From: Kovacikia minuta CCNUW1
GTDB lineage: Bacteria > Cyanobacteriota > Cyanobacteriia > Leptolyngbyales > Leptolyngbyaceae
Direction: 5' to 3'
Length of the DNA: 64,000 nucleotides
NCBI RefSeq assembly: GCF_020091585.1
Contig: NZ_CP083582.1
Span: 5,466,536 to 5,530,535 of the forward strand
This document shows, in pieces, positions 1 through 40,549 of the stretch. Under the pieces are notes generated by a model. It was not told the origin of the DNA and did not search any database. It saw nothing but the letters and a program-made list of their open reading frames with translations. Numbering within the stretch: position 1 is the stretch's first letter; every line of letters starts with the position of its first letter. The position numbers and the translations under genes were made by a program.

Positions 1-3000
1 CTCCAACTATACGCTGGGTCTGCAACAGTTGCAGAGTCCACCCCTGACGCTAAATGGGCAGGATCAATATATGCGCGTACCGCTGAATGATCCGGAAACC
101 GAAGTTACCCATGAACTGTGGTTCAAAACCAGTTCACCCAACTGTGGTCTGTTTACAGTTGGAGCGGGTGGAACGGGGATACCATTTGCGTACGATCGCC
201 AGATTTACCTGAGGGGCGGCAACATTAAAGCGCGGATTCAGAGTGGCTTGAACCTTAAATCGATGGTTGAGGAAGATGAAATCATTACCAGTATTAATCT
301 CAATCTTGCCGACGGTGAATGGCACCATGTCGCCCATGTTTTTGGGACAATCGATGGAGCGAAGGGGCAGAGGCTCTATGTTGATGGAAAAGAAGTCGCC
401 AGGGGCGTAATAGGAACTTCTGACTTCGACCCATCTAGCCTCGACCTAAACGAGGCCATCCTAATCGGCTTCTCCTACCACCCTGCCCTAAATCTAGATT
501 TCAAAAATCGCTATTTCATAGGTCAAATCGACGAAGTGCGGGTCTGGAACCGGGTGCGTACCCTTGCCGAAATTCAAAGCACCATGAGCGATCCGCTGAC
601 GGGCAGCGAAGCGAACTTAATTGGCTACTGGCATTTTGGGGAAGTCACCGGCACCACCGTAAAGGATTACTCCCCCGGCAATCATCCGGCAACTCTATAC
701 GGTGCCCCCCAAATTGGCGGCGCTTACCTCGTCGCGGGTGTCAAGAACCAGTTGATCCAGAGCAGCCAGACCTTCCCCACCAACACCTGGAGCCATCTCG
801 CTGCCGTCTTCCGCCAATCCTGGGGACTCAAGTTTGATGGCACGGGCGGCTATCTCGATTGCGGCAACGATGCCACCCTGGATATTCGCCGCGACCTGAC
901 GATTGAAGTGCTTCTGAAAGTCACCGCCTTGACCAAACCCATGCTGCTCCTGATGAAAGGCACGACTTCCGATCCGGCGGCATACAGCTTAACGATTAAT
1001 ACTGATGGGGTGCTGGAGTTTAACCCTGGTTCGGTGCGATCGACTCAGGGGCTGCAAGCGGGGCGATTCTACAAAATTACCGTGGTGCGCCAGTATCAAT
1101 CCAGCACCAAAAATAACGGCATCGGTGCGGCTGCCTTTGTTTCCACCAAACTGGGCATCGACGAGGCGAAATCCAGTATCATCCGCACGCATCTCAAAGA
1201 CGACGGCTATCTGATCGAGCGTCGCTTCGAGACCGGATACGCCGTTGCCGACAAAGTCAATTCACCCGGCATAAGAGATATCAGTGCCTTAAAGACGAAA
1301 CTGACTATCCCCGATGCCGACTGGAACGCTAAAGAGCCAGAATACTTTCAACATATCCGCACGGTTTTAACTAGCCCGGTTATTCAAGTGGAAACTACGG
1401 CGGGTGTTTCCTTCTACATTAACCAACAGCCCGCTGGTTCCAGTTCCAGTGGGGGGGATGTGACAGGTAATGATGCCGCCCTCACCATTGGCGGATCGCC
1501 CGTCAATCCAGCCGCGTATTTTAACGGGGTGATGAGCGAAGTGCGGCTGTGGAATGTGGCGTTGGCAAAAGAAGCGATCGCCCTCGACATCAAAGGCGAT
1601 GAAAAAGGGTTAGTCTCCTGGTGGCGCTTTGAAGAAAAACAAGGCAGCACTGCCCTCGATTCCAAGAGCCAGAACCATGCCAAAATCAAAAACACCCTGC
1701 AATGGGTCGCCGAACCCGATGACCCCCAATCGCGCCTTACTCTGTACCACAACGGCGAAGAGATACTTGCCCAATCCATTGCCAGTATTCCCTTCCAAAC
1801 CAGCACCAGCCAGTTCACCCTCGGTGCTCTGACCGAAGGCAGTAACCGCAAAAACTACTTTCAGGGCGAACTGGAAGAAGTGCGGATCTGGAAAATTGTC
1901 CGCACCCAGGAGCAAATCCGGGATAACCTGTTCCGACGGCTGATGGGTGACCAGGAAGACCTCGTCGCCTACTACACCTTCGACCCCGCCCCTGATCCCG
2001 AATCTAAGACAAGCTCCAGCGCAATATCATCTAGCGCAACAGCGACAAATTCCATCCGGATTACCGACCACTCCTTCCAGTCCAATCACCTGGAGGTTCC
2101 ACCGCTCGTTCCGATCGACTACACACTTGCTCTGCGATCGCTAGAGAGTGTTGCAACTCTACCCACAACAGGTCAAGGTTTAGTGATTGTCGCCAAAATT
2201 GGCAGTTCCTACCATATGCGTGCTTTCAATCGAGCTGGAGAACAGATTCTAGATAAAGCCATTGCCCCGGATGCGGAACTGGTGAAACAGATAGACGCGG
2301 CGTTGAAGCAAGCATCCATTGATGCCGCCACACAAACTAGACTTCTGAAACAACTTTCAGCGGTTAATCCCTACATCCTCTCCACCGCGCCGATTAGCGA
2401 CGATACGCCCCAGGTGAGGAGTGCCCTCGCCGGGATTAAAACCGCCTTCAGCGGCACGATCCAGAGCCAACCAGCGGTGCAAGAATACGGCGATATGCAG
2501 TACGACAGCGCTGGCAACCTGATTGGCGTGTTCAAACGCTGCTACAGCTTCATTAAAGATAACCACTGGCACCTGATCACGGGCTTCAAAGTCGGCGACT
2601 TGCTCACCGAATGGGTGGGGCAGGTGCAGTACGCGCCCCAGATGATCGGCTATATCGAAGGCGCACCGCCCGTGCCCAGCGAAAACCTCACCGCCATTGC
2701 CGGGAAACTCTCCGATTATGCCCGTGCCAGTTCGATCGAACTCGTCCAGGCGGAAAGCACTACCTACAACTACACTGCTTCCAAATCGGGCGGTTTTGAT
2801 ATGCAGGTGGACTTCAAAGTGGGCGGCATTAGTGAAACCAGCGCGGAAATGGATGTGCCCTTGTTTGATACGCAACTATTCAAAATGGGATACACCTTTG
2901 GTCTACAGGGCAAATTTGAACATTCCACAGGTTGGCTCTCAGAAGCAGTGACTGGGGTGGGACGCACCAAAACGAACTCCAGTAAACTCTCCCTGCGCGG

Positions 3001-6000
3001 GACGGCGGAAAATCCAGATGCGATCGCCTATCCCACGATCGGCAGACGATTTGTACCCACCAATGTGGGTTTGGCCCTGGTCAAATCAGACACCGCCGAT
3101 GTGTTTGCCCTCCGCCTGAAGCACAACAGCGCCCTGATCTCCTTCCAGATGCGTCCCAACCCCGATATTCCCCCGGATTGGAACCTGATTACCTTCCCAA
3201 TCAACCCCCGCTATATCAAGCAAGGGTCGCTGGATGGCAAAGTCGGCTTTAACCCCGATCGCAACTATCCCAACGCCCTCTCCTACAGTCCAGACAGCAG
3301 CTACTTCAAGCCGATTCAAGCCTACGCCCTGAAGGATCGGATCAATCGCGAAGCCAAGGAAAACCAGACCAACTACGCCCAATTTGATGCGGTTGCTAAA
3401 GGATCTGCTGTACCCACTCCCGGATTGCAGCAGCCCGGTGAACTGCAACAACTGCCACGGCGGGGTGACCTGCAAGACAAACCCGGTTCCCGATTGCCTC
3501 AATTCCAGAAGCGTAATTTGGTCAATACCTACGTCTGGACTGCCGACGGGGGACTGTTTGCCGAAAGCGAAGACACCCTGGATGCCTATCAAGAGAAACT
3601 GAACGGCACCTATGCCTTCAAAAGCTCGGCAGGTGTCTATGGAGAATTCAAACTGGCTCCCGCATGGTTTCCTGGACCCAATTTTAGCGCCAATGCCCTG
3701 TTTGGCGGTCGCCTCAATATGAGCGTCACCAAAGCCCAGGATTCTAAAACCACCTTTAGCCTCAAGGTGGATGTGGATAAGGTGGAGAGCGACATTTTTA
3801 TCCGCAAAGCCAACGGCGACCTGGAGATGGATCTGACCGATCCGCTCAACCCCAAACCCAAACGGCAGCCGGGACGGGTCGATGCCTACCGGTTTATGAG
3901 TTTCTACCTGGAACCCAAAGCTGACTACTTTGATACCTTTTTCAACCAGGTCGTCGATCCGATCTGGATTGAACAGAGCGATGACCCCAACGCCGCCGCC
4001 CTGCGGGAAGCCCGCCAGGAAACCAAAAAGCCCCCCTGCTGGCGGATTCTGCACCGGGTTACCTATGTCAGCCGGATTCTCCCCACCTTTGACGACAACG
4101 CCCCGCCCTCCCTGGAAAAGACCCTGCGAACCCTGGACATCAACAGCAACTATGAACTGATCAAGCAACTGGAACCCTTCGTCAGCAATAAGCTGGGCAG
4201 TTATGCCGAATTTAGTGATGCGATCGACGATGCCGTGACCACCTACTTGCCCGAACTCCAACCCCATTTGCCAGAGATTAAGCAATACATGAGTCTGTAC
4301 TTTGGTATGTTGGATGGCTCATTGCCAACGGGAGGTGATTTGGAGCAACCGCTCCTGGCTGCCCGGGTTGCCAACCAGCCGCCCTTAGTCAGCGCTGGAC
4401 AGGATCAGACCGTGGGCTTAAACGGTTCCTCGATCAAAGTGGAACTGGAAGGTAGTGCGATCAGCGACGATCGCTTCCCCCGCGAAGAATCCATCTTTGT
4501 CACTTGGGAACCAGTCGGCAGTGCAGAGGGGGTGCAACTGATCAACCCCCACGCCGACCCTGCCCTACCCGAAAAACCCACCGCTGTATTTACCCAACGT
4601 GGTAAATACACGCTCCAACTTACCGCCAACGATGGCTCCCTCTCTGCCAGCGACCAGCGCACGATTACCGTCAACACGCCGCCGAAAGTCAATGCAGGGG
4701 GCGATCGCACCCTCAAACCTGCTGCCGCCTCAAACTTGACCACACTAAAACTGGAGGGTGTTCTAGAAGATGATGGTTTGGGCGACCCCAAACAAGGCAC
4801 TATCAAGGTGAAATGGACTCAGGTACCCCCGTCGGGAAGAGAACTGACTGCCGCGGAACAGGTTGTGTTTGCAGATGCAACAGACTATCAAACCCTGGTG
4901 ACATTTAAACAAAGCGGTCATTATTTGTTGCGTTTAACGGTTGATAACGGCAGCTTTTCCGTCAATGATGAGGTGACGATCGCCGTTGGTGCAAGGGTTA
5001 CAGAAGGCTTGCAGCACCTCTACACCTTCAAAGCCGGGCAGGGCAACGAAATTGCCGATGTCTCCGGTGTGGCAGAACCCTTGGATCTGGTGATGCAAGA
5101 CGCTAGCTCGTCTGCCGTTGATTGGGTTGCCAATCAAAGTCTGAAATTGAAGACACCAACGCTGTTAAAGCAGAAGCAGGAGCAAAACCCTGCTACCCGG
5201 TTGATCAACGCCGTAAAAGCCAGTAATGAAATCACCGTGGAAGCCTGGATTGAACCCGCCGCCGCGCAGAACCGCCTCTCCCGGATCGTCACCTTGTCTT
5301 CTGGGTTAGCCGCCCGCAACTTCATTCTGGGGCAAGCGGGCAACCAATACCACTTCGGGCTACGCACCACCCAGACCAACCTGAGCGCCAGCGATCGCCC
5401 CTTGACCGCCGGAACCGTTGTGCCCAATCAGCTCACCCATGTGGTCTGCACTCGCGACACGGCAGGCTTGGTGCGCCTGTATGTAAACGGTGCCGAAGTC
5501 GCCAATCGCCGAGTCGGGGGAGATTTCTCCAATTGGGATAACACTTTCACCTTGATGCTGGGTAACGAATCGGAAATCGATACAGGCAATGGCAGCGGCA
5601 GCAGGAATGGAAATGGGAGTGGCGATCGCGCCTGGGTGGGCACCTATCACCTGCTCGCCATCTACAGCCGCGCCCTCAGTCCCGCTGAAATCCAGCAAAA
5701 CTACCAGTTCACGGCGGACAAAAACCTGCCGCCGATCGTCTCTGCTGGAGCAAACCAGGTGATTAACCAGGCAGCTTCGCCCACACAGGTGAAGGAAACT
5801 GGGGTGAGAGTGCCGTTAGCCGGAAAAGTGACGAACGATCGCCCCTCCCCCAAGCTGTCCCATCGCTGGACAAAAGTCAGTGGTCCGGGGGATGTGCAGT
5901 TTGAGCATGAAACGGACCTGACCACCGCTGCAATCTTCAAACAGAAAGGCATTTACGTTTTACGCCTGACAGTGGATGACGGCGAACTGACGACCAGCAA

Positions 6001-7585
6001 TGAAGTCACCATCACAGTGAACCACCAGCCTGAGGTGGATGCCGGCTCATCACAGCATCTCAATCGTCCCAACACGCTCCAACTAGTCGGAAGGCTGAAT
6101 GATAAAGGATTTGACGATGCGGCTCCAAGAACCCTGACCACAGAATGGTCTAAAGTCAGTGGCCCAGGAACGGTTGGGTTTACTCCTAACAACGCCTTAA
6201 CCACCACGGCTCAGTTCTCCCAATACGGCCCCTATGTGCTGAGACTAACGGCTACAACCAGCGACGCAAATAACAATCAACCCCTCTCCAGCAGCGATGA
6301 TGTCACCATCTATGTGCATGACGTTCCCAACATTCGAGCCACCAGTCCTCAATCTGTGATTACCCTTTCTCGAGAAGGCAAAGCAACGATCGTCCTGGCG
6401 GGTGAAATCATCGGGGGCAATACCGGGTTAGGAGATCCCCAGGGAACCGTCACCACGGAATGGAGTCAGGTCAGCGGTCCAGCAGCGATCGAATTCCAGC
6501 CCAACCAAACCTCATTGCAGCCCACCGCCCAATTTACAGCCAATGGAGAGTACACCCTCCGCTTCACGGTTAACAATGGGCACCTCTCTGCCTACAAAGA
6601 TGTGGCGATTACCGTCAACCGTTCTCCGATCGTGAATGCAGGGGATGATCAAACCATTACATTACCAGCAGGAGCCGAACTGGATGGCACGGTGGGAGAT
6701 GATGGACTGCCCAGCGACCCCGGTAGAGTCACGGTGCAATGGAGCAAAGTAAGCGGTCCCACCTCCGGCGAGGTCAGGTTTACCAACCCCACCGAAGTTT
6801 ACACTCAAGCCATCTTCTCTACTCCAGGCAACTATGTTCTCCGCCTGACCGCCAATGATGGTACAGGCCCCGTGAGTGACGATGTGACTGTTGCCGTGCT
6901 TCTGCCTCTTGCCTTCTACACCTTTAAGGAAAAGGTTGGAACAACCGTAACGGATCTGGCTGAACCCCGCTTGAATCTCACCTTCACCAGTGGTGCCAGA
7001 TTGACTGGCAATGCTCTGATTGTCGAGTCTTCTACCATCATTCAATCTGCGGGTGCAGCAACTAAAATCATCAACAAAGTTAAAGAAAAGAATGAACTTA
7101 CGATCGAAGCATGGGTTAAACCAACCAGAGCGAATCAGGGCAATACCCCCGGTCGAATTGTCACGCTTTCACCCGATATCAATAACCGCAACGTTTCATT
7201 GCAACAAGGGGTTTGGGACGAGCCCAACAACACAACTCAAAACGCATACGGAGTTCTTTTGCGAACAACTCAAACCAATAACAACGGTGGGTCAGCGCTG
7301 AAAGTTTCGAAGATCGCCCCAACGAGGGATCGAGTGCATTTGGTTTACACTCGCGATTCCAGCGGTAACGCCACAATCTATATCAATGGAGAGGCACAAG
7401 CCAGTGGAACCGTAACCGGAGACTTTTCAACCTGGGATAATAATTATCGTCTGGCGTTTGCCAATGAATTGACGGGAGATCGTCCCTGGTTGGGAGAGTA
7501 CTACCTGGTGGCTATCTATGCCCGTGCGCTGACAGAAATTGAGGTCAAGCAAAACTACAACTACATCAGACTAGATGCTCGATGA
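1..7585 (+). CDS. Giant LamG/PKD-repeat surface protein (5' end outside window)
   Basis: The frame is already open at base 2, so the true start and any signal peptide lie to the left of the window; the TTG at 29 is only the first possible start inside it. Counting from there (2,518 residues), LamG/concanavalin A-like modules lie at about 1-235, 265-570 (with an insertion), 575-690, 1660-1895 and 2290-2518, recognised by recurring DGEWHHVAHVF, GQIDEVRVWNR and VEAWI-type strands. PKD-like beta domains start near 1450, 1548, 1900, 1997 and 2197 with a P-x-V-x-A-G signature and end in YxLxLTxxDG. Residues about 700-1450 match nothing I recognise. LamG and PKD modules are known extracellular binding and spacer domains. 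I infer an exported adhesin or sheath protein; no catalytic motif is visible. The stop overlaps a short spurious frame, and no partner gene is evident. Confidence 0.8.
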   Translation, partial: SNYTLGLQQLQSPPLTLNGQDQYMRVPLNDPETEVTHELWFKTSSPNCGLFTVGAGGTGIPFAYDRQIYLRGGNIKARIQSGLNLKSMVEEDEIITSINLNLADGEWHHVAHVFGTIDGAKGQRLYVDGKEVARGVIGTSDFDPSSLDLNEAILIGFSYHPALNLDFKNRYFIGQIDEVRVWNRVRTLAEIQSTMSDPLTGSEANLIGYWHFGEVTGTTVKDYSPGNHPATLYGAPQIGGAYLVAGVKNQLIQSSQTFPTNTWSHLAAVFRQSWGLKFDGTGGYLDCGNDATLDIRRDLTIEVLLKVTALTKPMLLLMKGTTSDPAAYSLTINTDGVLEFNPGSVRSTQGLQAGRFYKITVVRQYQSSTKNNGIGAAAFVSTKLGIDEAKSSIIRTHLKDDGYLIERRFETGYAVADKVNSPGIRDISALKTKLTIPDADWNAKEPEYFQHIRTVLTSPVIQVETTAGVSFYINQQPAGSSSSGGDVTGNDAALTIGGSPVNPAAYFNGVMSEVRLWNVALAKEAIALDIKGDEKGLVSWWRFEEKQGSTALDSKSQNHAKIKNTLQWVAEPDDPQSRLTLYHNGEEILAQSIASIPFQTSTSQFTLGALTEGSNRKNYFQGELEEVRIWKIVRTQEQIRDNLFRRLMGDQEDLVAYYTFDPAPDPESKTSSSAISSSATATNSIRITDHSFQSNHLEVPPLVPIDYTLALRSLESVATLPTTGQGLVIVAKIGSSYHMRAFNRAGEQILDKAIAPDAELVKQIDAALKQASIDAATQTRLLKQLSAVNPYILSTAPISDDTPQVRSALAGIKTAFSGTIQSQPAVQEYGDMQYDSAGNLIGVFKRCYSFIKDNHWHLITGFKVGDLLTEWVGQVQYAPQMIGYIEGAPPVPSENLTAIAGKLSDYARASSIELVQAESTTYNYTASKSGGFDMQVDFKVGGISETSAEMDVPLFDTQLFKMGYTFGLQGKFEHSTGWLSEAVTGVGRTKTNSSKLSLRGTAENPDAIAYPTIGRRFVPTNVGLALVKSDTADVFALRLKHNSALISFQMRPNPDIPPDWNLITFPINPRYIKQGSLDGKVGFNPDRNYPNALSYSPDSSYFKPIQAYALKDRINREAKENQTNYAQFDAVAKGSAVPTPGLQQPGELQQLPRRGDLQDKPGSRLPQFQKRNLVNTYVWTADGGLFAESEDTLDAYQEKLNGTYAFKSSAGVYGEFKLAPAWFPGPNFSANALFGGRLNMSVTKAQDSKTTFSLKVDVDKVESDIFIRKANGDLEMDLTDPLNPKPKRQPGRVDAYRFMSFYLEPKADYFDTFFNQVVDPIWIEQSDDPNAAALREARQETKKPPCWRILHRVTYVSRILPTFDDNAPPSLEKTLRTLDINSNYELIKQLEPFVSNKLGSYAEFSDAIDDAVTTYLPELQPHLPEIKQYMSLYFGMLDGSLPTGGDLEQPLLAARVANQPPLVSAGQDQTVGLNGSSIKVELEGSAISDDRFPREESIFVTWEPVGSAEGVQLINPHADPALPEKPTAVFTQRGKYTLQLTANDGSLSASDQRTITVNTPPKVNAGGDRTLKPAAASNLTTLKLEGVLEDDGLGDPKQGTIKVKWTQVPPSGRELTAAEQVVFADATDYQTLVTFKQSGHYLLRLTVDNGSFSVNDEVTIAVGARVTEGLQHLYTFKAGQGNEIADVSGVAEPLDLVMQDASSSAVDWVANQSLKLKTPTLLKQKQEQNPATRLINAVKASNEITVEAWIEPAAAQNRLSRIVTLSSGLAARNFILGQAGNQYHFGLRTTQTNLSASDRPLTAGTVVPNQLTHVVCTRDTAGLVRLYVNGAEVANRRVGGDFSNWDNTFTLMLGNESEIDTGNGSGSRNGNGSGDRAWVGTYHLLAIYSRALSPAEIQQNYQFTADKNLPPIVSAGANQVINQAASPTQVKETGVRVPLAGKVTNDRPSPKLSHRWTKVSGPGDVQFEHETDLTTAAIFKQKGIYVLRLTVDDGELTTSNEVTITVNHQPEVDAGSSQHLNRPNTLQLVGRLNDKGFDDAAPRTLTTEWSKVSGPGTVGFTPNNALTTTAQFSQYGPYVLRLTATTSDANNNQPLSSSDDVTIYVHDVPNIRATSPQSVITLSREGKATIVLAGEIIGGNTGLGDPQGTVTTEWSQVSGPAAIEFQPNQTSLQPTAQFTANGEYTLRFTVNNGHLSAYKDVAITVNRSPIVNAGDDQTITLPAGAELDGTVGDDGLPSDPGRVTVQWSKVSGPTSGEVRFTNPTEVYTQAIFSTPGNYVLRLTANDGTGPVSDDVTVAVLLPLAFYTFKEKVGTTVTDLAEPRLNLTFTSGARLTGNALIVESSTIIQSAGAATKIINKVKEKNELTIEAWVKPTRANQGNTPGRIVTLSPDINNRNVSLQQGVWDEPNNTTQNAYGVLLRTTQTNNNGGSALKVSKIAPTRDRVHLVYTRDSSGNATIYINGEAQASGTVTGDFSTWDNNYRLAFANELTGDRPWLGEYYLVAIYARALTEIEVKQNYNYIRLDAR

Positions 7586-12383: not shown

Positions 12384-13121
12384 ATGCCCACTGCAAGTAA
12401 TCCTCCTCAAACGATTCTGTTTCTTGCCGCCAATCCTAGAGATACCGTTCGCCTGCGACTGGATCAGGAGTTACGCGATGTTGCCGAAGGGTTGCAGCGA
12501 TCGCGGCAGCGTGACCAGTTTCGCCTGGAGCAGCGGTTAGCCGTCCGTCCCCGCGACATTCAACGCGCCATGCTGGATGTGGGACCGCAACTGGTTCACT
12601 TTTCTGGACACGGAGCCGGAGCAGAAGGACTGTACTTTGAGGACGAAGGGGACAATGCGAAGCTGGTATCTGGGGACGCACTCGCTGGACTGTTTGCGCT
12701 GTTTGCAGACCAGATTCACTGCGTCTTGCTGAACGGCTGCTACTCAGAGGTGCAGGCACAGGCAATTGCCCACCACGTCGATTACGTGATTGGGATGAAC
12801 CAGAGCATTGGCGATCGGGCGGCGATCGAATTTGCCGTCGGCTTCTACGACGCCCTGGGTGCTGGTCGTTCGATCGACTTCGCCTACCAACTCGGCTGCA
12901 ACGCCATCCACCTGGCAGGCATCCCCGAACACCTCACCCCCGTTCTATTAAAAAAAACTCCCACCCCTATCTCCCCCACCTCCCCCACCTCCCCCCTCTC
13001 CCACTCCCCACCTCCCCCCTCTCCCACTCCCCACCTCCCCCACCTCCCCCCTCTCCCTCTTCATCTCCTACTCCCACAAAGACGAAGAGTGGCGGGAAGA
13101 GTTGGATGTGCATCTTGCTAA
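12384..13121 (+). CDS. CHAT-domain (caspase-like) protein, N-terminal part of a split CHAT-TIR gene
   Basis: Residues 10-195 form a CHAT domain of the caspase-like peptidase clan. It opens with ILFLAANPRDTVRLRLDQEL, then has LVHFSGHGAG holding the catalytic His and CVLLNGCYSE holding the catalytic Cys. CHAT proteases act in bacterial immunity and cell-death systems, for example with TPR or CRISPR partners. After residue ~195 the frame runs into a proline/serine-rich stretch made of C-rich repeats and ends in an unrelated tail (LLLPQRRRVAGRVGCASC). The neighbouring +1 frame encodes a full TIR domain immediately after the same linker, so the original product was very probably CHAT-linker-TIR of about 370 aa. 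An A8 run at 12950-12957 sits at the start of the linker. The ATG at 12384 directly precedes the domain. Confidence 0.85.
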   Translation: MPTASNPPQTILFLAANPRDTVRLRLDQELRDVAEGLQRSRQRDQFRLEQRLAVRPRDIQRAMLDVGPQLVHFSGHGAGAEGLYFEDEGDNAKLVSGDALAGLFALFADQIHCVLLNGCYSEVQAQAIAHHVDYVIGMNQSIGDRAAIEFAVGFYDALGAGRSIDFAYQLGCNAIHLAGIPEHLTPVLLKKTPTPISPTSPTSPLSHSPPPPSPTPHLPHLPPLPLHLLLPQRRRVAGRVGCASC

Positions 13122-13503
13122 TTTGAAACGGCAGGGCAAAATTCGAGCGTGGCACGATCGCGCAATCGAAGCCGGAACAGAATGGGCTGTGGAGATTCAG
13201 CAGCAACTAGAAGCTGCCCAGGTAATTTTGCTACTGATCAGCCCGCGCTTTATGGCATCGGACTATTGCTACGGGCTGGAAATGCAGCAGGCAATGCAGC
13301 GGCATGAAGCGGGCACCGCTCGGGTGATTCCGATTATTTTGAAACCCGTGGACTGGAAAGATACACCCTTCAGTAAGTTGCAGGTGTTACCCAGGGATGC
13401 CCGACCGATTACCCAGTGGCGCGATCGCGACGAAGCGTTTTTGGATGTGGTGCAGGGCATTCGGCGGGCGTTGGAACTGCTTCAGCGTTGGGAAAAAAAG
13501 TAG
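12952..13503 (+). pseudogene. TIR domain, C-terminal part of the split CHAT-TIR gene
   Basis: In the frame +1 to the CHAT part, an open stretch starts after a TAA at 12949-12951, passes through the C-rich linker and enters a TIR domain at 13057 with LFISYSHKDEEW. The domain continues through LLISPRFMASDYCYG and EMQQAM, whose Glu is at the position of the NADase catalytic residue of bacterial TIRs, and ends at ALELLQRWEKK. The only internal start, TTG at 13102, would delete the first beta strand, so independent translation of a working TIR is unlikely. A shift of one base between 12952 and 13057 would rejoin it to the CHAT frame. Bacterial TIR domains typically cleave NAD+ or make signal nucleotides during phage defence. 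Disablement, assembly error and slippage at A8 are all possible. Confidence 0.75.
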
Positions 13504-13989
13504 GCAGGCGGGCAGGTACATTTCCTGCGACTGGAAGGGAATGGGGGGCATTGAAAATGTTCTAGCAAGATGGCGCGGAGCTATTGCAGATTACAGATTA
13601 CGGGGGAGAGAAGTCTGTGATTGCCTTAAGGGTGGCTCCGCTAGCGATTGCGGCAGTGGCTTGACGGGTATCGACTGTAATCAGTGGGCAATCTAGTTCT
13701 AGAGCCAGAGCAATGTAGAGAGAGTCATAAACCGCAAGTTGATTGGTTAGTCCAATTTGCAGCGCACGAGACAATAGAGGATGGACAGCAACAATCTGAA
13801 AGGGCAATTTCAGCAAATCGGTGATGATTTCCACCGCATCGGCTTGGGGTAAGCCATCAAAGCGGACATGTTTCCAGAGGACATTGGTGCATTCCAGAAG
13901 GCAAAACTCTGGTATATAGAGGCGGTCACCCTGAGCTATTAACCCGGCAGCTTTTGTTCCTACATATTTTGGAATTGCGCCATGATTGC

Positions 13990-14069
13990 GTAGGGTGCTG
14001 TTAGCGACAGCGTAACGCACCGAGGCGTGGGTTAGCGGTGCGTTACGGCGATGCCTAACAGCACCCTAC
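13990..14069. mobile_element. 80-bp MITE inserted in vapC
   Basis: The outer ends GTAGGGTGCTGTTAG and CTAACAGCACCCTAC are complementary, and the inner parts GCGTAACGCACC and GGTGCGTTACGGC extend the pairing to about 32 bp on each side. It has no coding capacity. Elements of this kind (GTAGGGTGCTGTTAG...) are widespread in filamentous cyanobacteria. The right half is duplicated in tandem with flanking DNA (see 14023-14200). Confidence 0.8.
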
Positions 14070-14200
14070 AGCTCATGCTAGATCAAATATTGCCAGGTTA
14101 ATAAACCAGCCAGGCGTGGGTTAGCGGTGCGTTACGGCGATGCCTAACAGCACCCTACAGCTCATGCTAGATCAAATATTGCCAGGTTAATAAACCAGCC
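14023..14200. repeat. Two tandem 89-bp copies of MITE right half plus flank
   Basis: 14023-14111 and 14112-14200 appear identical by eye. Each copy contains the right half of the MITE and about 42 bp of adjoining sequence ending in AATAAACCAGCC. It adds a second in-frame barrier inside the vapC gene. Near identity of the copies suggests a recent duplication. Confidence 0.85.
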
Positions 14201-14267
14201 AGTAAATTTGTTACGGCTGCCGTGTAGATATCTGGATCAAGATAATGTCCTAAAACACTGGCGTCCA

Positions 14268-14492
14268 CTACATACCTTGCCGCCATTGCTCACGTTCCTC
14301 AATGATCATTTGGCTAGCTTTAGGGGTTCCTGGCGGCGGTGTCCACCTGTGCTGCTCGATCGCCCGCAGGATTTCCTGAACAGATTGTGAATCATTTGAT
14401 TGAGCCTGCTGCTGGAGCCGTTCATCAACGATGTGTTGAATCAAATCTTTAAGCTCTTCGATCGTCATATCCGTAACTTTTTGAGTTTGCAT
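14268..14492 (-). CDS. VapB-like antitoxin
   Basis: A 74-aa acidic small protein starting MQTQKVTDMTIEELKDLI, followed by a helical, Gln-rich middle and a C-terminus ending EREQWRQGM. The EELKxLI start resembles the antitoxin at 33122. Its stop lies inside the start of the PIN gene (overlap of 19 bp), the usual arrangement of vapBC pairs. The frame is intact although the toxin is broken. The binding partner is inferred from position only. Confidence 0.75.
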   Translation of the reverse strand: MQTQKVTDMTIEELKDLIQHIVDERLQQQAQSNDSQSVQEILRAIEQHRWTPPPGTPKASQMIIEEREQWRQGM

Positions 14493-14652
14493 CTCAGGGG
14501 CTTCTCCGTTGGCTTGAACTCAGGGTATAGCAGGTGGTAGGTGGCAGGTGGTAGGGAATCAAGAATCACTCGCAAAGGGTTTCAGTGCTACAAAATGTCC
14601 TTACCTTTTGTGGCTATGGCTATTATTCTAAATTCTCGATCGCGATCGCAAA

Positions 14653-14925
14653 GACAGGGTTCACATTCATAACGACAGCGATCGCATTCATTAGCACGGG
14701 GTAAGCGATCGTTACGACGGAGATCGCGTTCATAACAACAGCGATCGCGTTCACAACAACAGCGATCGCGATTGTTGTGACGGAGGTAGCTGTCGTTGTA
14801 ACAGAGGTTGCCGTCGTGACGACAGGGTTCGCGATCTCAACGACAAAGGTAACGTTCCTTACGACAGAGGTCGCGATTGTAATGATAGGCTCAACGTTTG
14901 TGATGACAAGAGATAGTTGTCGTTG
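14653..14925. repeat. Thirteen degenerate 21-bp tandem units in perfect phase
   Basis: Units such as GACAGCGATCGCATTCATTAG, with the pattern RAC-R-GNGNTNRCGNT, follow each other every 21 bp from 14653 to 14925 with no insertion or deletion, although the units have diverged strongly. Several contain the HIP1 octamer. Both strands stay open through most of the array as heptad peptides (plus strand TEVAVVV-TEVAVVT; minus strand VNAIAVVMNAISVV). It lies between the antitoxin gene and the conserved gene at 15010. A second 21-bp array with another consensus is at 29184-29414. Confidence 0.85.
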
Positions 14926-15009
14926 TTGCAGCAAAAATTGGTTTCGTTACGCCGGGGTTAGCGATAATATATCTTTAAAGCATCAAAATTCTTGCGTCAG
15001 GATTTTGCG

Positions 15010-16017: not shown

Positions 16018-16232
16018 GAAAACTTCTGTCTGCGTCTCCCCCTCTCCCCCTCCCCCCTCCCCGTGTCTCCCCCTCTCCCCTTGCCCTCAATCTTTTGCTG
16101 AGAGATGTTGCTCTAATAGGGCTATTCGATGCATCATTGAGAAAGTGTCAAATGCCTAAAGCTACGAGTATCACTAACTTTCAGGGCTTGAAGGTGCGAA
16201 AGTTCGGATAAGGTGTGTCAAAGGTTCTAATC

Positions 16233-17652
16233 ATGCGAGATGGGAACGGTGGAGCACAACCAATCTCCTTTGAGGTTGCCCTCAGGGTGGCGGACGCAGC
16301 GGTTTTTGCGAAAACCTCCAAACATTTGAAAAATATAGAGGTTACTGTCCTCCGGGGGGCATGGATGGGGCAACGGTACGACCAAATTGCGGAAGAAAAC
16401 GGCTACGCCCCGGAATATATTAAGCATGATGTTGGGCCAAAGTTGTGGCAGAGCCTTTCCCAAAGCCTGGGAGAAAAGGTTAGTAAGACGAACTGGGTGG
16501 CTGTTTTAGCGCAGAAGGCGGAGCAGGAGCCAGGCGTCAGGGGACAGGGGACCGGGGACAGCCAGGAAACCCATCCCCCATCCTCCGTACCTTCAATTAC
16601 AGAGCTAGAAGCCCCGATCGGCTTGGTGCCGTTGGACTCTGTACTGTATGTGGAGCGTCCTCCAATTGAATCTCGTTGCTATGAGGAAATTGGACGCTCC
16701 GGCTCGCTGATTCGCATCAAAGCCCCCAGTCAAATGGGTAAAACTTCCCTGATGGTGAGGATTCTTGCCCATGCCAAACGGGCTGGAACGGAGACAAATG
16801 AGGAGGTTCAGACGGTAGCGCTGAGTTTGCAACAGGCAGATAAGGCGGTTTTTTTCGATCTGGATCGGTTCCTGCGCTGGTTTTGTGCTGCGATCGCCCG
16901 CAAACTGCAACTCTCCTACCGAATTGAAGACTACTGGAGTGAAACCTTTGGCAGCAAAAGCAACTGCACTGCCTTCTTTGAGGATTGCATTCTACCTGAA
17001 GTCAATGGTCCATTGGTGCTGGCGCTGGATCAGGTCGATGAGGTGTTTTTGCACCCAGAAATTCGCCGATGATTTTTTCACCTTGTTGCGCTCCTGGTAC
17101 GAGGAAGCTGCCTACGGGGACAGTGGCAATCCACTCTGGCAAAATTTACGCCTGGTCATTGTTCACTCGACTGAGGTTTACATTCCCCTGGATATCAACA
17201 AATCGCCGTTTAACGTGGGACTTGCGATCGAACTGCACACGTTTACTCCTCCCCAGGTGCATGCCTTATCTCAGCGGTTTGGCTTAAGCCTATCCGACAG
17301 TGATCTTTCTGCTTTGATACATCTGGTTGCCGGACATCCCTACCTGGTTCAGCAAGCGCTTTACCACATGGCGCAGCAAAACCTGACCCTGGAGCAACTG
17401 ATTCAAACCGCTACGACAGATGCAGGCATTTACCGAAATCATTTACATCGGCATTTACGCAATCTTCAGGAGCATCCCCCCCTTGCAACCGCTTACCATC
17501 AGGTCGTTCAGGCATCTGCGCCGATAGAATTAGAACCCCTTCCAGCCTTTAAGTTGCACAGTATGGGGTTAGTGGCACTGCAAGGAAATCAAGTGGTTCC
17601 CAGTTGTGAGTTGTATCGGCGCTATTTTAGTGACCATGCAGCAGCGTTGTGA
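16233..17652 (+). pseudogene. AAA-like STAND ATPase with vMAP-type N-terminal domain, frameshifted
   Basis: The N-terminus (FEVALRVADAAVFAKT, LRGAWMGQRYDQIAEENG, LSQSLGEKVSKTNW) matches the helix-turn-helix-like domain that precedes cyanobacterial vWA-MoxR-associated/STAND ATPases. A linker made of repeat-derived sequence follows, then an AAA-like domain with Walker A APSQMGKTSLM and Walker B LVLALDQVDEVF. Reading stops at 17070, but the +1 frame continues the same protein (DDFFTLLRSWYEEAAYG, then LVAGHPYLVQQALYHM) to 17652. The break lies at about 17055-17070. Full length would be about 475 aa, normal for the family. The start may be ATG 16233 or GTG 16215. Such proteins are thought to act as signal-sensing switches, often in conflict systems. 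Confidence 0.82.
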
Positions 17653-29530: not shown

Positions 29531-30007
29531 ATGGAACCTGTAAGTACCCTGGCAGCAGGGGCGATCGTCCAGCTTGCCTTCAACGAATTCATCAAATCCA
29601 GTGCCGGAGAAGCGGCGAAAAAATTGACGGGGGAGGCACTGACCAAAGCGAATGAACTCCGTAAAGCAATCTGGGCAAAGTTTAAGGGCAGCGATCGGGC
29701 TGAAACCGCATTGGCTGAGGTCGAAAAAGAGGGCACTCCGGAAGCTCTGGACAGGGTAACAAAACTCCTGGATGCCGAAATGTCCTTTGAACCGGAATTT
29801 GCCACCCAGATCCGCCAGCTTGCCCAACAGATCCAGAATCTGACCGATAGCAGTCAAAAAATGGCAAGTAATATCAAGTTGGAAGGAGATTTAAAGGCTC
29901 AAAGCATGACTCAACGAGCAACATCAGGAGATATTCGAGAGCAGGAAATGCTGACAAATGTAGAGGCAAAGAATATTGAGCTAGGCAACTTGACGCAGGA
30001 AAGCTGA
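29531..30007 (+). CDS. Small helical partner protein of the NACHT gene
   Basis: 158 aa from ATG 29531 (MEPVSTLAAGAIVQLAFNEF). The frame is open 20 codons upstream, but those residues lie in front of the conserved-looking start. The first 60 residues are Ala-rich and helical, and could insert into or lie on a membrane; the rest is a Gln/Glu-rich coiled-coil-like segment (QIRQLAQQIQNLTDSSQKM) ending in short beta-type repeats (VEAKNIELGNLTQ). The stop is 4 bp from the NACHT start, so both are co-transcribed. Small proteins of this sort precede cyanobacterial NACHT genes and may act as sensor or effector-associated modules; that role is inferred. Confidence 0.75.
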   Translation: MEPVSTLAAGAIVQLAFNEFIKSSAGEAAKKLTGEALTKANELRKAIWAKFKGSDRAETALAEVEKEGTPEALDRVTKLLDAEMSFEPEFATQIRQLAQQIQNLTDSSQKMASNIKLEGDLKAQSMTQRATSGDIREQEMLTNVEAKNIELGNLTQES

Positions 30008-30011
30008 CAAT

Positions 30012-32408
30012 ATGGCTGAAGATGACAAGCGCCAGCGAACCTTTCAGGAAATTCTCAAGAACGTTCGTGTTGGAGGGAATTTGACGGTTGGTAACATCAC
30101 TCAGATCAATGAGCGAGAAAAACCTGAGCGCCCTCGTAACGAGCAAAGTTTTCTGGAATGGGTTAAGCAAGAACAGGTTGGCAAATCGCTGGAAGTTTTG
30201 CACACCGAAAGACCGATCGCCCTCCGAAAACAGTTGCAACCTGAGCAGGTTAGCCCGTTATCCAAAACCTTCAGTAAAACGTTTGGTAAGTCCGTATCTC
30301 CATTGTCTGAAAGCGCGACCATTCTGGAGATTTTCGATCGAACCGATATTGTCGGGAAACTTCTGATTCTCGGTGAACCGGGTTCTGGAAAAACTATCAC
30401 TTTGCTAGAACTGGCACAGGGCTTAGTCCAACGTGCCGAAGCAGATACCAACTTCCCAATTCCCGTTCTGTTTAACCTGTCATTCTGGAAAGATGCTCGT
30501 CAGTCTATTACAGAATGGGTAGTCGAGCAACTTCAATCCTATGGGGTATCAAAAAAGCTGAGTAAAGAGTGGGTTGATAATTGTCAGTTGTTGCCCCTGT
30601 TCGATGGATTGGATGAAGTGAAACCTGAATTGCAAACCTCTTGTGTGCAAGCAATTAACCAATGGCTGCAAAAGGAGTATCGCCTACGGCTAGTCGTCTG
30701 CTGTCGTAGAGAAGAGTATGAGAAAGTCACCCGGGGGCAGTGGCAGGATGATACTGAGTCGGAAGAGGAAACATCCAAATCAACAGAAGAAACTCGCCTT
30801 CACTTAAATAGCGCAACTCTGGTGCAAGCACTGACAGATGACCAAATTCAAGAATATTTGGCAGCAGTTAATCAATCAGAACTTTGGCAAACTCTGGAGC
30901 AAGATGCAGATCTATTGGAATGGGTTAGAACACCTTTGTTCCTATCAGTTTTAGGATTCATTGCGTCCCATCAAAAGTTATCTATCCAACATTGGCAAAC
31001 CTTGCCTTCTACCGAAACACGCCTTCAGTACTTATTTGATGCCTACTGGGAAGCCGTGATGGAGCGGGAATTAGTTAGTCCACAGATGCGATCGCAGGGA
31101 ATAAAAAGCCAGTCCTATGAAAAGCACGTACCTCCAGATAGGAAGCAAACACGACACTGGCTAGTGTTCCTAGCACAACGATTGCAGCGAGAATCTCAAA
31201 CCGAATTCTTGATTGAAAAAATCCAATTTCATTGGGTATCTGCTTCTATGAGGATGAATGTAAAACTCATTCAGCTTTCTTTCCAATTTTTCATTATCTT
31301 GCCAGCAATTTTTTGGGCTTATATGAGAAGAGATTCTCCCCAAAACTATTCGATATCTCCTCTAGAAATAACACTGATGGTGCTAGCGATAATCTCAATG
31401 CTGATTTCCGTTCCTTTTGCCGAAATATTTGATTTCACAAAAGATATATTCCTCACCCGTAAACTTTACTGGTCATGGAGAAAGGCAATTCTCAATTTCA
31501 TAAAACCTCTTATTTATGGATCTACATTTGGAGTATCAATCGGTTTGATGGCAGGATTAACTAGTCAATTAAAGCTAGGAGAAACAAGCGGAGTAATTCT
31601 AGGATTCAGCGTGGGCTGTTTAGCTACAAAGATTTTCTTTTCTAGATTTTTTGAGGGTTTTACTGATCTTTATAGATTCATCTTATTTAATTTACTGGAA
31701 GCAGGTTTCTTGAGTATCAAAGAAAATCTGAGCATTCGCTTGAGCCTTTCTGTAACAGCTTTAAGTTGGATTGAGAAGTATATCAAGCTTGCATTGCAGC
31801 CTATTATCTGCCTTTTCGGTTATATTCCTATTATTAGTTCTGGTTTTATCCTTGCTATAGCTGGCTTCTGGGGAACCACACAAAACACTGGCTTCGTTGA
31901 TAATCTAAAAGAGGGAGTAATCAATGGGATTCTATTGGGTTTAACTACTGGATTTCTTTGTCTATGCACAACGGGATGGGAAGAAGTAAAAGAGATAGAA
32001 CCTGGTTTTCCGGGCAAAGGTGTCAAAACATCATTACAACACTTCGTTATAGTATCTACAACGTTTCTATTAGTCTTTGCTTTCGTAACAGTGATTTTTT
32101 GCTTTTTCCAACCTTTTCTCCTCAAGCAGCAATCAAATGGAACATACTATGTTTTCTCGGTAGGTATAGGGTTACTCTTTGGTTTAATGATTAGCTGGCA
32201 AGAAGCTCCTATAAAAAATGCAACAATCTTTATAAGGCACGCTATTTTACGTTTTATTCTTTGGTTGGATGGCTCCATTCCCTGGAACTATGCCCGCTTT
32301 CTCGACTACTGCACAGAACGCCTCCTGCTCCAGCGCATCGGTGGGCGGTATCGGTTTATTCACAAGTTGTTGCAAGACCATTTTGCGGAGATGGGGCGTG
32401 GGGAGTAG
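30012..32408 (+). CDS. NACHT-domain STAND NTPase with C-terminal membrane region
   Basis: 798 aa. The N-terminus has a short beta motif (VRVGGNLTVGNITQIN) like that at the end of the partner protein. The NACHT ATPase occupies ~110-330: Walker A LGEPGSGKTITLLEL, Walker B LLPLFDGLDEV, then LVVCCRREEYE and VRTPLFLSVLGFIA (winged helix). Residues ~410-760 contain many hydrophobic segments, so the C-terminal half is membrane-embedded. The last ~40 residues (RFLDYCTERLLLQRIGG, RFIHKLLQDHFAEMG) are repeated as displaced fragments four times downstream. Bacterial NACHT proteins act in phage defence; a membrane effector half suggests depolarisation, by inference. Confidence 0.92.
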   Translation: MAEDDKRQRTFQEILKNVRVGGNLTVGNITQINEREKPERPRNEQSFLEWVKQEQVGKSLEVLHTERPIALRKQLQPEQVSPLSKTFSKTFGKSVSPLSESATILEIFDRTDIVGKLLILGEPGSGKTITLLELAQGLVQRAEADTNFPIPVLFNLSFWKDARQSITEWVVEQLQSYGVSKKLSKEWVDNCQLLPLFDGLDEVKPELQTSCVQAINQWLQKEYRLRLVVCCRREEYEKVTRGQWQDDTESEEETSKSTEETRLHLNSATLVQALTDDQIQEYLAAVNQSELWQTLEQDADLLEWVRTPLFLSVLGFIASHQKLSIQHWQTLPSTETRLQYLFDAYWEAVMERELVSPQMRSQGIKSQSYEKHVPPDRKQTRHWLVFLAQRLQRESQTEFLIEKIQFHWVSASMRMNVKLIQLSFQFFIILPAIFWAYMRRDSPQNYSISPLEITLMVLAIISMLISVPFAEIFDFTKDIFLTRKLYWSWRKAILNFIKPLIYGSTFGVSIGLMAGLTSQLKLGETSGVILGFSVGCLATKIFFSRFFEGFTDLYRFILFNLLEAGFLSIKENLSIRLSLSVTALSWIEKYIKLALQPIICLFGYIPIISSGFILAIAGFWGTTQNTGFVDNLKEGVINGILLGLTTGFLCLCTTGWEEVKEIEPGFPGKGVKTSLQHFVIVSTTFLLVFAFVTVIFCFFQPFLLKQQSNGTYYVFSVGIGLLFGLMISWQEAPIKNATIFIRHAILRFILWLDGSIPWNYARFLDYCTERLLLQRIGGRYRFIHKLLQDHFAEMGRGE

Positions 32409-39562: not shown

Positions 39563-40549
39563 ATGATGTTAAGTAGTATGTTAAATAATCTTTTGCAGAT
39601 TAACAAAGAACTATCCCTTTCCTCTTCTTTTCAAACAATAAGAGATTTCGTTGGTAGTTCTAATTTGAACGACGATTACCGCTTCAGCCTAATCGGTCGG
39701 AGTAGCATCTCTCTCTCGCTTCAGGATTTGCATGCGAATGGCGATTTACAACTCATTCAAGATCGCAACAATAATTCTCGAATTGATGCTGGGGAAGTGA
39801 TTGCAACTTCAACCCAAAGCGGAAAACGTAGAGAGTTTATCCATTCAATTTTGGATTCTGGTACTTACTACATTCGCGTTTATGCAGTTAGCCAGTGTCA
39901 AAACACAACCTACGGTTTAAGCTTCAAAATGGCAGAAACGGAACAACCTGGCACAGATGTGAGTGATGGTGGTAAAGAAAATATTGTTCCTCCTGTTGTT
40001 GTTCCTCCTGTTGTTGTTCCTCCTGTTGTTGTTCCTCCTGTTGTTGTTCCTCCTGTTGTTGTTCCTCCACCCATTTCTGGCAAAACCGGTCCTGAGGATC
40101 TTTTTGCACTTTCTTCAAGTCAGCAGCAGATCCGATTGGGCGTTAATTTACAAGCTACAAGCTATCAGGCAAGCGGTAATAGCTTTGTTCGGGCAAATAA
40201 CGATTCTACTTTTTGGTGTACCGAATATGCTTATGGAAGAGCGATAGAAAAGGGTTTGTTTAGTGATGGGCAGGGAATTGGAGGAACTATTTGGGGAAAT
40301 GCGGATTCCTGGGATGACCACATTGGTTTAAGCAATGTGAAATCTCAAGCTAGAGCGAATAGCTTTATCATTTGGGATTCTAATCAAGCAGGGGCAAGTA
40401 GTTTTGGGCATGTTGGTTTCGTTGAGGAAGTTTACTCCGACGGTTCCTTCCTGATTTCAGAAGCAAACTGGAATGGGTTAGATTTTAATCTACGCTTAAT
40501 CAATCCGGGATCTGTAGCGTACAATCAAGCGAAGTTCATTTATCTCTAA
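39563..40549 (+). CDS. PPC-domain protein with Pro-Val repeats and C-terminal CHAP amidase/peptidase domain
   Basis: 328 aa from ATG 39563, which has GGAG 6 bp upstream (the ATG at 39551 has none). Residues ~25-125 form a bacterial pre-peptidase C-terminal (PPC) domain (DYRFSLIGRSSISLSL, LDSGTYYIRVYAV). A linker of five PPVVV units follows. The last ~130 residues are a CHAP domain with the catalytic Cys in STFWCTEYAYGRA, the His in SSFGHVGFVEEV and a polar residue in ISEANWN. CHAP enzymes hydrolyse peptidoglycan peptides. No classical signal peptide, so export by another route is implied. It faces another PPC protein on the opposite strand. Confidence 0.85.
   Translation: MMLSSMLNNLLQINKELSLSSSFQTIRDFVGSSNLNDDYRFSLIGRSSISLSLQDLHANGDLQLIQDRNNNSRIDAGEVIATSTQSGKRREFIHSILDSGTYYIRVYAVSQCQNTTYGLSFKMAETEQPGTDVSDGGKENIVPPVVVPPVVVPPVVVPPVVVPPVVVPPPISGKTGPEDLFALSSSQQQIRLGVNLQATSYQASGNSFVRANNDSTFWCTEYAYGRAIEKGLFSDGQGIGGTIWGNADSWDDHIGLSNVKSQARANSFIIWDSNQAGASSFGHVGFVEEVYSDGSFLISEANWNGLDFNLRLINPGSVAYNQAKFIYL
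39989..40063. repeat. Five 15-bp units coding PPVVV
   Basis: CCTCCTGTTGTTGTT is repeated five times exactly and encodes the linker of the CHAP protein. Exact identity points to recent expansion or slippage; copy number is likely variable between strains. Confidence 0.95.

Follow-up and report, generated by a model that had tools for sequence, protein, structure and literature searches.

The NTP-dependent conflict systems that Kaur et al. (PMC7159879, PMC8195603) describe in multicellular bacteria share with the gene family considered here a CHAT or caspase-type peptidase, a TIR domain, STAND or AAA NTPases, and C-terminal domains that can be swapped. The occurrence of CHAT and TIR in one protein has already been published for the target of Thiohalocapsa DGR 2 (PMC10907252), and the family described below has the same arrangement. 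In addition, a TIR product activates a caspase-like protease in type IV Thoeris (PMC12847820). We analyzed a stretch of 64,000 nucleotides from Kovacikia minuta CCNUW1 (contig NZ_CP083582.1), referred to as the window, in which a CHAT domain is followed by a TIR domain in a different reading frame. We put the probability at roughly three in four that this gene is normally a one-frame CHAT-TIR effector of STAND-NTPase conflict systems and that it is split here by a plain indel in the linker. The features on which the argument draws are as follows.

12384..12950, + strand: CHAT (caspase-like peptidase) domain with His76 and Cys119 (PF12770, 8tl0 alignment, PADLOC 'chat' model)
12950..13053, + strand: linker consisting of an A8 run (Leu-Lys-Lys codons) and a C-rich tandem array; site of the frame change
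13054..13503, + strand: TIR domain and stop codon, in the +1 frame relative to CHAT (PF13676, PADLOC ThsB model)
16215..17652, + strand: AAA_35 (AAA-like NTPase) gene, frame-split near 17050 (PF14516 in two frames)

The two halves of the gene were initially described in a sequence-only reading as a CHAT domain with its His and Cys and a complete +1-frame TIR domain, each with its key residues kept, joined by a C-rich repeat linker that starts with an A8 run; each part of this description was confirmed. The CHAT ORF begins with the ATG at 12384 and, as written, runs to 13121 (TAA at 13119). Its residues 13-167 match PF12770 (Pfam, E=8e-9), the PADLOC 'chat' model matches it with E=5e-25, and the solved CHAT protein 8tl0 aligns to it over 170 residues (E=4.7e-18) with His and Cys in register. 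These catalytic residues, which are expected of the family, are His76 within HFSGHG (nt 12609) and Cys119 within LNGCYS (nt 12738). The TIR domain (LFISYSHKDEEW...) occupies 13054-13500, in the +1 frame, and matches both PF13676 (Pfam, E=2.5e-19) and the PADLOC ThsB model PDLC00420, a broad model (E=2e-57), and the conserved TIR Glu, likewise expected of the family, is present at nt 13279. In the TIR frame, no ATG, GTG, or TTG was found ahead of the first TIR strand, the earliest being TTG 13102 and GTG 13108, both of which are within the domain. A separate complete TIR product is therefore not expected, and independent translation of the TIR was rejected. Translated as written, the sequence yields a CHAT protein of 245 aa that ends in a junk tail.

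The nearest upstream stop codon in the TIR frame is TAA 12949-12951, so the change of frame must fall within about 12950-13054. Counted from 12951, the linker is 103 nt long, which is not divisible by three, and the two domains are consequently not in one reading frame. It begins with the A8 run at 12950-12957 and then consists mostly of a tandem array at 12970-13057, with units of approximately 9 and 23 nt and also of approximately 32 nt; all three frames are open across this array, and 12950-13054 holds six C5 or C6 runs. C-rich arrays of this type are dispersed by the dozens over the genome, many of them outside long ORFs, and the array is thus not special to the CHAT-TIR gene. Such an array is prone both to assembly indels and to real indels. 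Two other repeats were noted in the window, an intergenic 21-nt repeat array rich in CGATCG at 14637-14934 and a perfect 15-nt tandem repeat of 5.7 copies at 39984-40068. The window also carries a very long + strand ORF (2526 aa, 5-7582) with laminin-G-like and PKD domains.

The search for relatives of the window gene covered 42 genomes from its order and 390 from its class, together with a collection of one genome per species and with plasmid records. Fifteen CHAT-TIR relatives were found, 13 at genome loci and 2 on Acaryochloris plasmids, with identities to the window gene of 67-80% in CHAT and 55-71% in TIR. In all 15 the TIR is in frame with CHAT, with linkers of 75-111 nt that are every one divisible by three, and the two plasmid copies are each annotated as one CDS. 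A second CHAT lineage contributes four further CHAT-TIR proteins, which are likewise in frame. Set against the 15 relatives, the linker in the window is the sole exception to the multiple-of-three rule, which makes the window gene a frame-split copy of the family and not an intact member. The search for in-frame CHAT-TIR orthologues that the sequence-only reading had proposed was thus successful, so that for the family as a whole this is an ordinary fusion. Its idea that both modules would occupy one polypeptide is upheld by these orthologues and by the architecture already in print (PMC10907252). Taken together, these comparisons of sequences indicate that the frame split is not a family trait, whereas CHAT-TIR is an established architecture that is common in cyanobacteria.

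The relatives bear directly on the proposal, made in the same reading, that transcriptional slippage at the A8 run could give two products, one CHAT-only and one CHAT-TIR. We considered ribosomal frameshifting at the run together with this proposal. The run sits exactly where the TIR frame opens, and A8 or T8 runs are rare, with only 4 in the 64-kb window. However, the A run corresponds to conserved Leu-Lys-Lys codons. In relatives, which are in frame without slippage, these codons give a run of A6 or A7 or one that is interrupted, so A8 needs no special role, and the offset is seen in no relative. A slippery run kept in relatives that need it, as expected of a slippage gene, was not found; because the length of the run varies and the relatives are in frame, A8 was rejected as a conserved slippery signal. 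We therefore regard slippage as highly improbable.

A second alternative places the switch in the array itself, where slipped-strand changes in the copy number of units whose lengths are not multiples of three would alternate CHAT-only and CHAT-TIR forms within a population. The array units of approximately 9, 23, and 32 nt, the C5/C6 runs in the linker, and the three frames open across the array would all suit such a mechanism, and CHAT-only and CHAT-TIR orthologues both occur beside the same gene. Conversely, the linkers of the relatives are nonrepetitive, lack a C-rich array, and are all in frame, similar arrays are scattered over the genome with many outside long ORFs, and the genus is represented by one genome. 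Other CHAT genes (L086-L094) have repeat-like linkers that keep the frame in every case with a following domain, and L096 is apparently a case of domain loss and not of frameshift; repeat-linker phase variation in these other CHAT genes was therefore rejected. Phase variation in the window gene is improbable on this evidence, and the specific form in which the array acts as a length switch, with a culture mixing CHAT-alone and CHAT-TIR cells, is marginally more improbable still. If it were true, such a switch would allow the cost of an NAD-consuming defense effector to be tuned.

We also considered whether the domains had ever shared a frame in this lineage. According to this third alternative, a CHAT gene was joined at the C-rich repeat to the TIR of a TIR-NTPase gene, and the two were never in one frame in the window lineage. 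The TIRs most similar to that of the window gene (74-78%) belong mostly to long TIR-NTPase proteins, one of which is a paralogue encoded in the same genome (L104, 76%), and in a TIR tree the window TIR falls outside the CHAT-TIR groups and near some TIR-NTPase TIRs, with weak support. In addition, the DNA resembles that of the CHAT relative L031 as far as the A run, and that of L104 from the TIR onward. However, approximately unbiased (AU) tests rejected none of the placements tried, including those with the CHAT-TIR groups (p 0.13-0.43), and because the linkers of the relatives all differ from one another, similarity is expected to break off there. Moreover, CHAT-TIR genes with the same boundaries are widespread. 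A recombination junction is unlikely on balance, although less so than either form of switching.

The preferred reading, a plain indel in the linker of a normally one-frame gene, was examined further through the condition of the two halves. At otherwise invariant columns, the window gene departs at 3/84 in CHAT and 3/44 in TIR, which is within the range of the in-frame relatives. Synonymous sites (pS) are near saturation while pN is 0.12-0.25, and GC3 is 0.63 for the TIR in its own frame and 0.62 for CHAT. Both halves look constrained, and the offset is therefore either recent or artefactual. Of the earlier suggestion that the separation is "recent or conditional," the first part fits these intact, constrained domains; the second gained no evidence.

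Single frame-splits are common in this assembly. They were found in 4 of about 105 ABC_tran domains, in 2 of about 25 CHAT genes, and in the AAA_35 gene of the window, which amounts to approximately one split for every 10 kb of sampled domain sequence. The genes concerned look otherwise intact, and most of these other splits lie away from long homopolymers; gyrA, within the window, is intact. Fragmentation of genes by indels is known in long-read assemblies (PMC12007338). The split can thus be explained by an assembly indel or a recent mutation, of which an assembly indel is somewhat more likely than a recent real one. By this reading, a net indel inside the linker (12950-13054) would put the TIR out of frame, arising either as an uncorrected assembly error or through a mutation, real and recent, of an unstable array, and a decoding trick would be unnecessary for explaining the split. 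The main lesson of the frame split is that, where genes are broken in this assembly, reads are needed before the breaks are interpreted.

The surroundings of the relatives suggest how the intact form may work. Of the 12 relatives with enough sequence, 10 have an NTPase gene, in some cases recognized by sequence likeness or annotation only, that starts 18-232 nt beyond the end of CHAT-TIR in the same orientation; the gene table is incomplete for the two exceptions, L115 and L114. These downstream genes are of several types: NB-ARC with TPR, nSTAND1 with WD40, AAA_16, and iSTAND with a weak EAD9 match followed by AAA. This adjacency suggests, from gene order, a unit made up of a sensor ATPase and a CHAT-TIR effector. 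One kind of iSTAND gene follows both the CHAT-only orthologues L033, L034, and L036 and the CHAT-TIR genes L031 and L032. This shared neighborhood suggests that the CHAT protease is the constant part and that the TIR may be an optional appendage, serving as an effector or signal maker, with a STAND-type sensor in control, which agrees with the systems of Kaur et al. (PMC7159879, PMC8195603). Across the comparative set, the CHAT module, often beside a STAND or AAA NTPase, has had C-terminal domains gained, lost, and swapped, and CHAT-only and CHAT-TIR genes beside the same neighbor provide a natural test of what the TIR contributes.

No STAND or AAA NTPase gene adjoins CHAT-TIR in the window. 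The nearest is the AAA_35 gene at 16215, which lies 2.7 kb downstream with opposite-strand genes between, and is a possible candidate for the partner of the window CHAT-TIR. It is itself split, with PF14516 profile positions 3-146 and 139-330 matched in two different frames, and six homologues read through the break without a change of frame. Two further genes of the window were noted. A PIN-domain (VapC-like) toxin-type gene at 13598-14290 on the - strand seems broken: its PIN match begins at profile position 20, and upstream of a tandem duplication of 89 nt (14013-14190) there is a plausible N-terminal start, although the 39-aa N-terminal piece gave no Pfam match on its own. A NACHT-domain protein of approximately 800 aa, a STAND-type NTPase, is encoded at 29997-32405 on the + strand (PF05729, E=5.8e-8).

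In the intact form, CHAT and TIR would normally be encoded in one frame with a flexible linker between them. The neighboring STAND or AAA NTPase would sense an invader and assemble, and the CHAT cysteine protease, thereby activated, may cleave a target or itself. The TIR would then consume NAD+ or make an NAD-derived signal, and the predicted outcome is a stop in growth or cell death before the invader spreads.

Compared with the systems of Kaur et al. and the Thiohalocapsa DGR 2 target, the window copy differs in being frame-split and in having no NTPase gene directly downstream. Proteases of the SAVED-CHAT type (8tl0) align with the window CHAT, with His and Cys in register, but they carry a fused SAVED domain, whereas the window ORF begins at CHAT and has no SAVED domain. 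With Thoeris the window gene shares a TIR of the ThsB type, as judged by the broad PADLOC model PDLC00420, and in type IV a TIR and a caspase-like protease act together. Unlike in Thoeris, CHAT and TIR are in one gene in the relatives of the window gene, and a separate effector of the ThsA type was not recognized among the window neighbors searched; type IV Thoeris may serve as a working analogy, and membership is not claimed. The EACC1-caspase two-gene system (PMC7159879) resembles the family in that its caspase-like domain stays constant while the C-terminal partners take many alternative forms; its 5' gene, a one-helix membrane component, was recognized neither beside the window gene nor beside the relatives with listed neighbors. 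In sum, the window holds a known kind of defense gene, which the sequence-only reading had spotted correctly while reading too much into its frame split.
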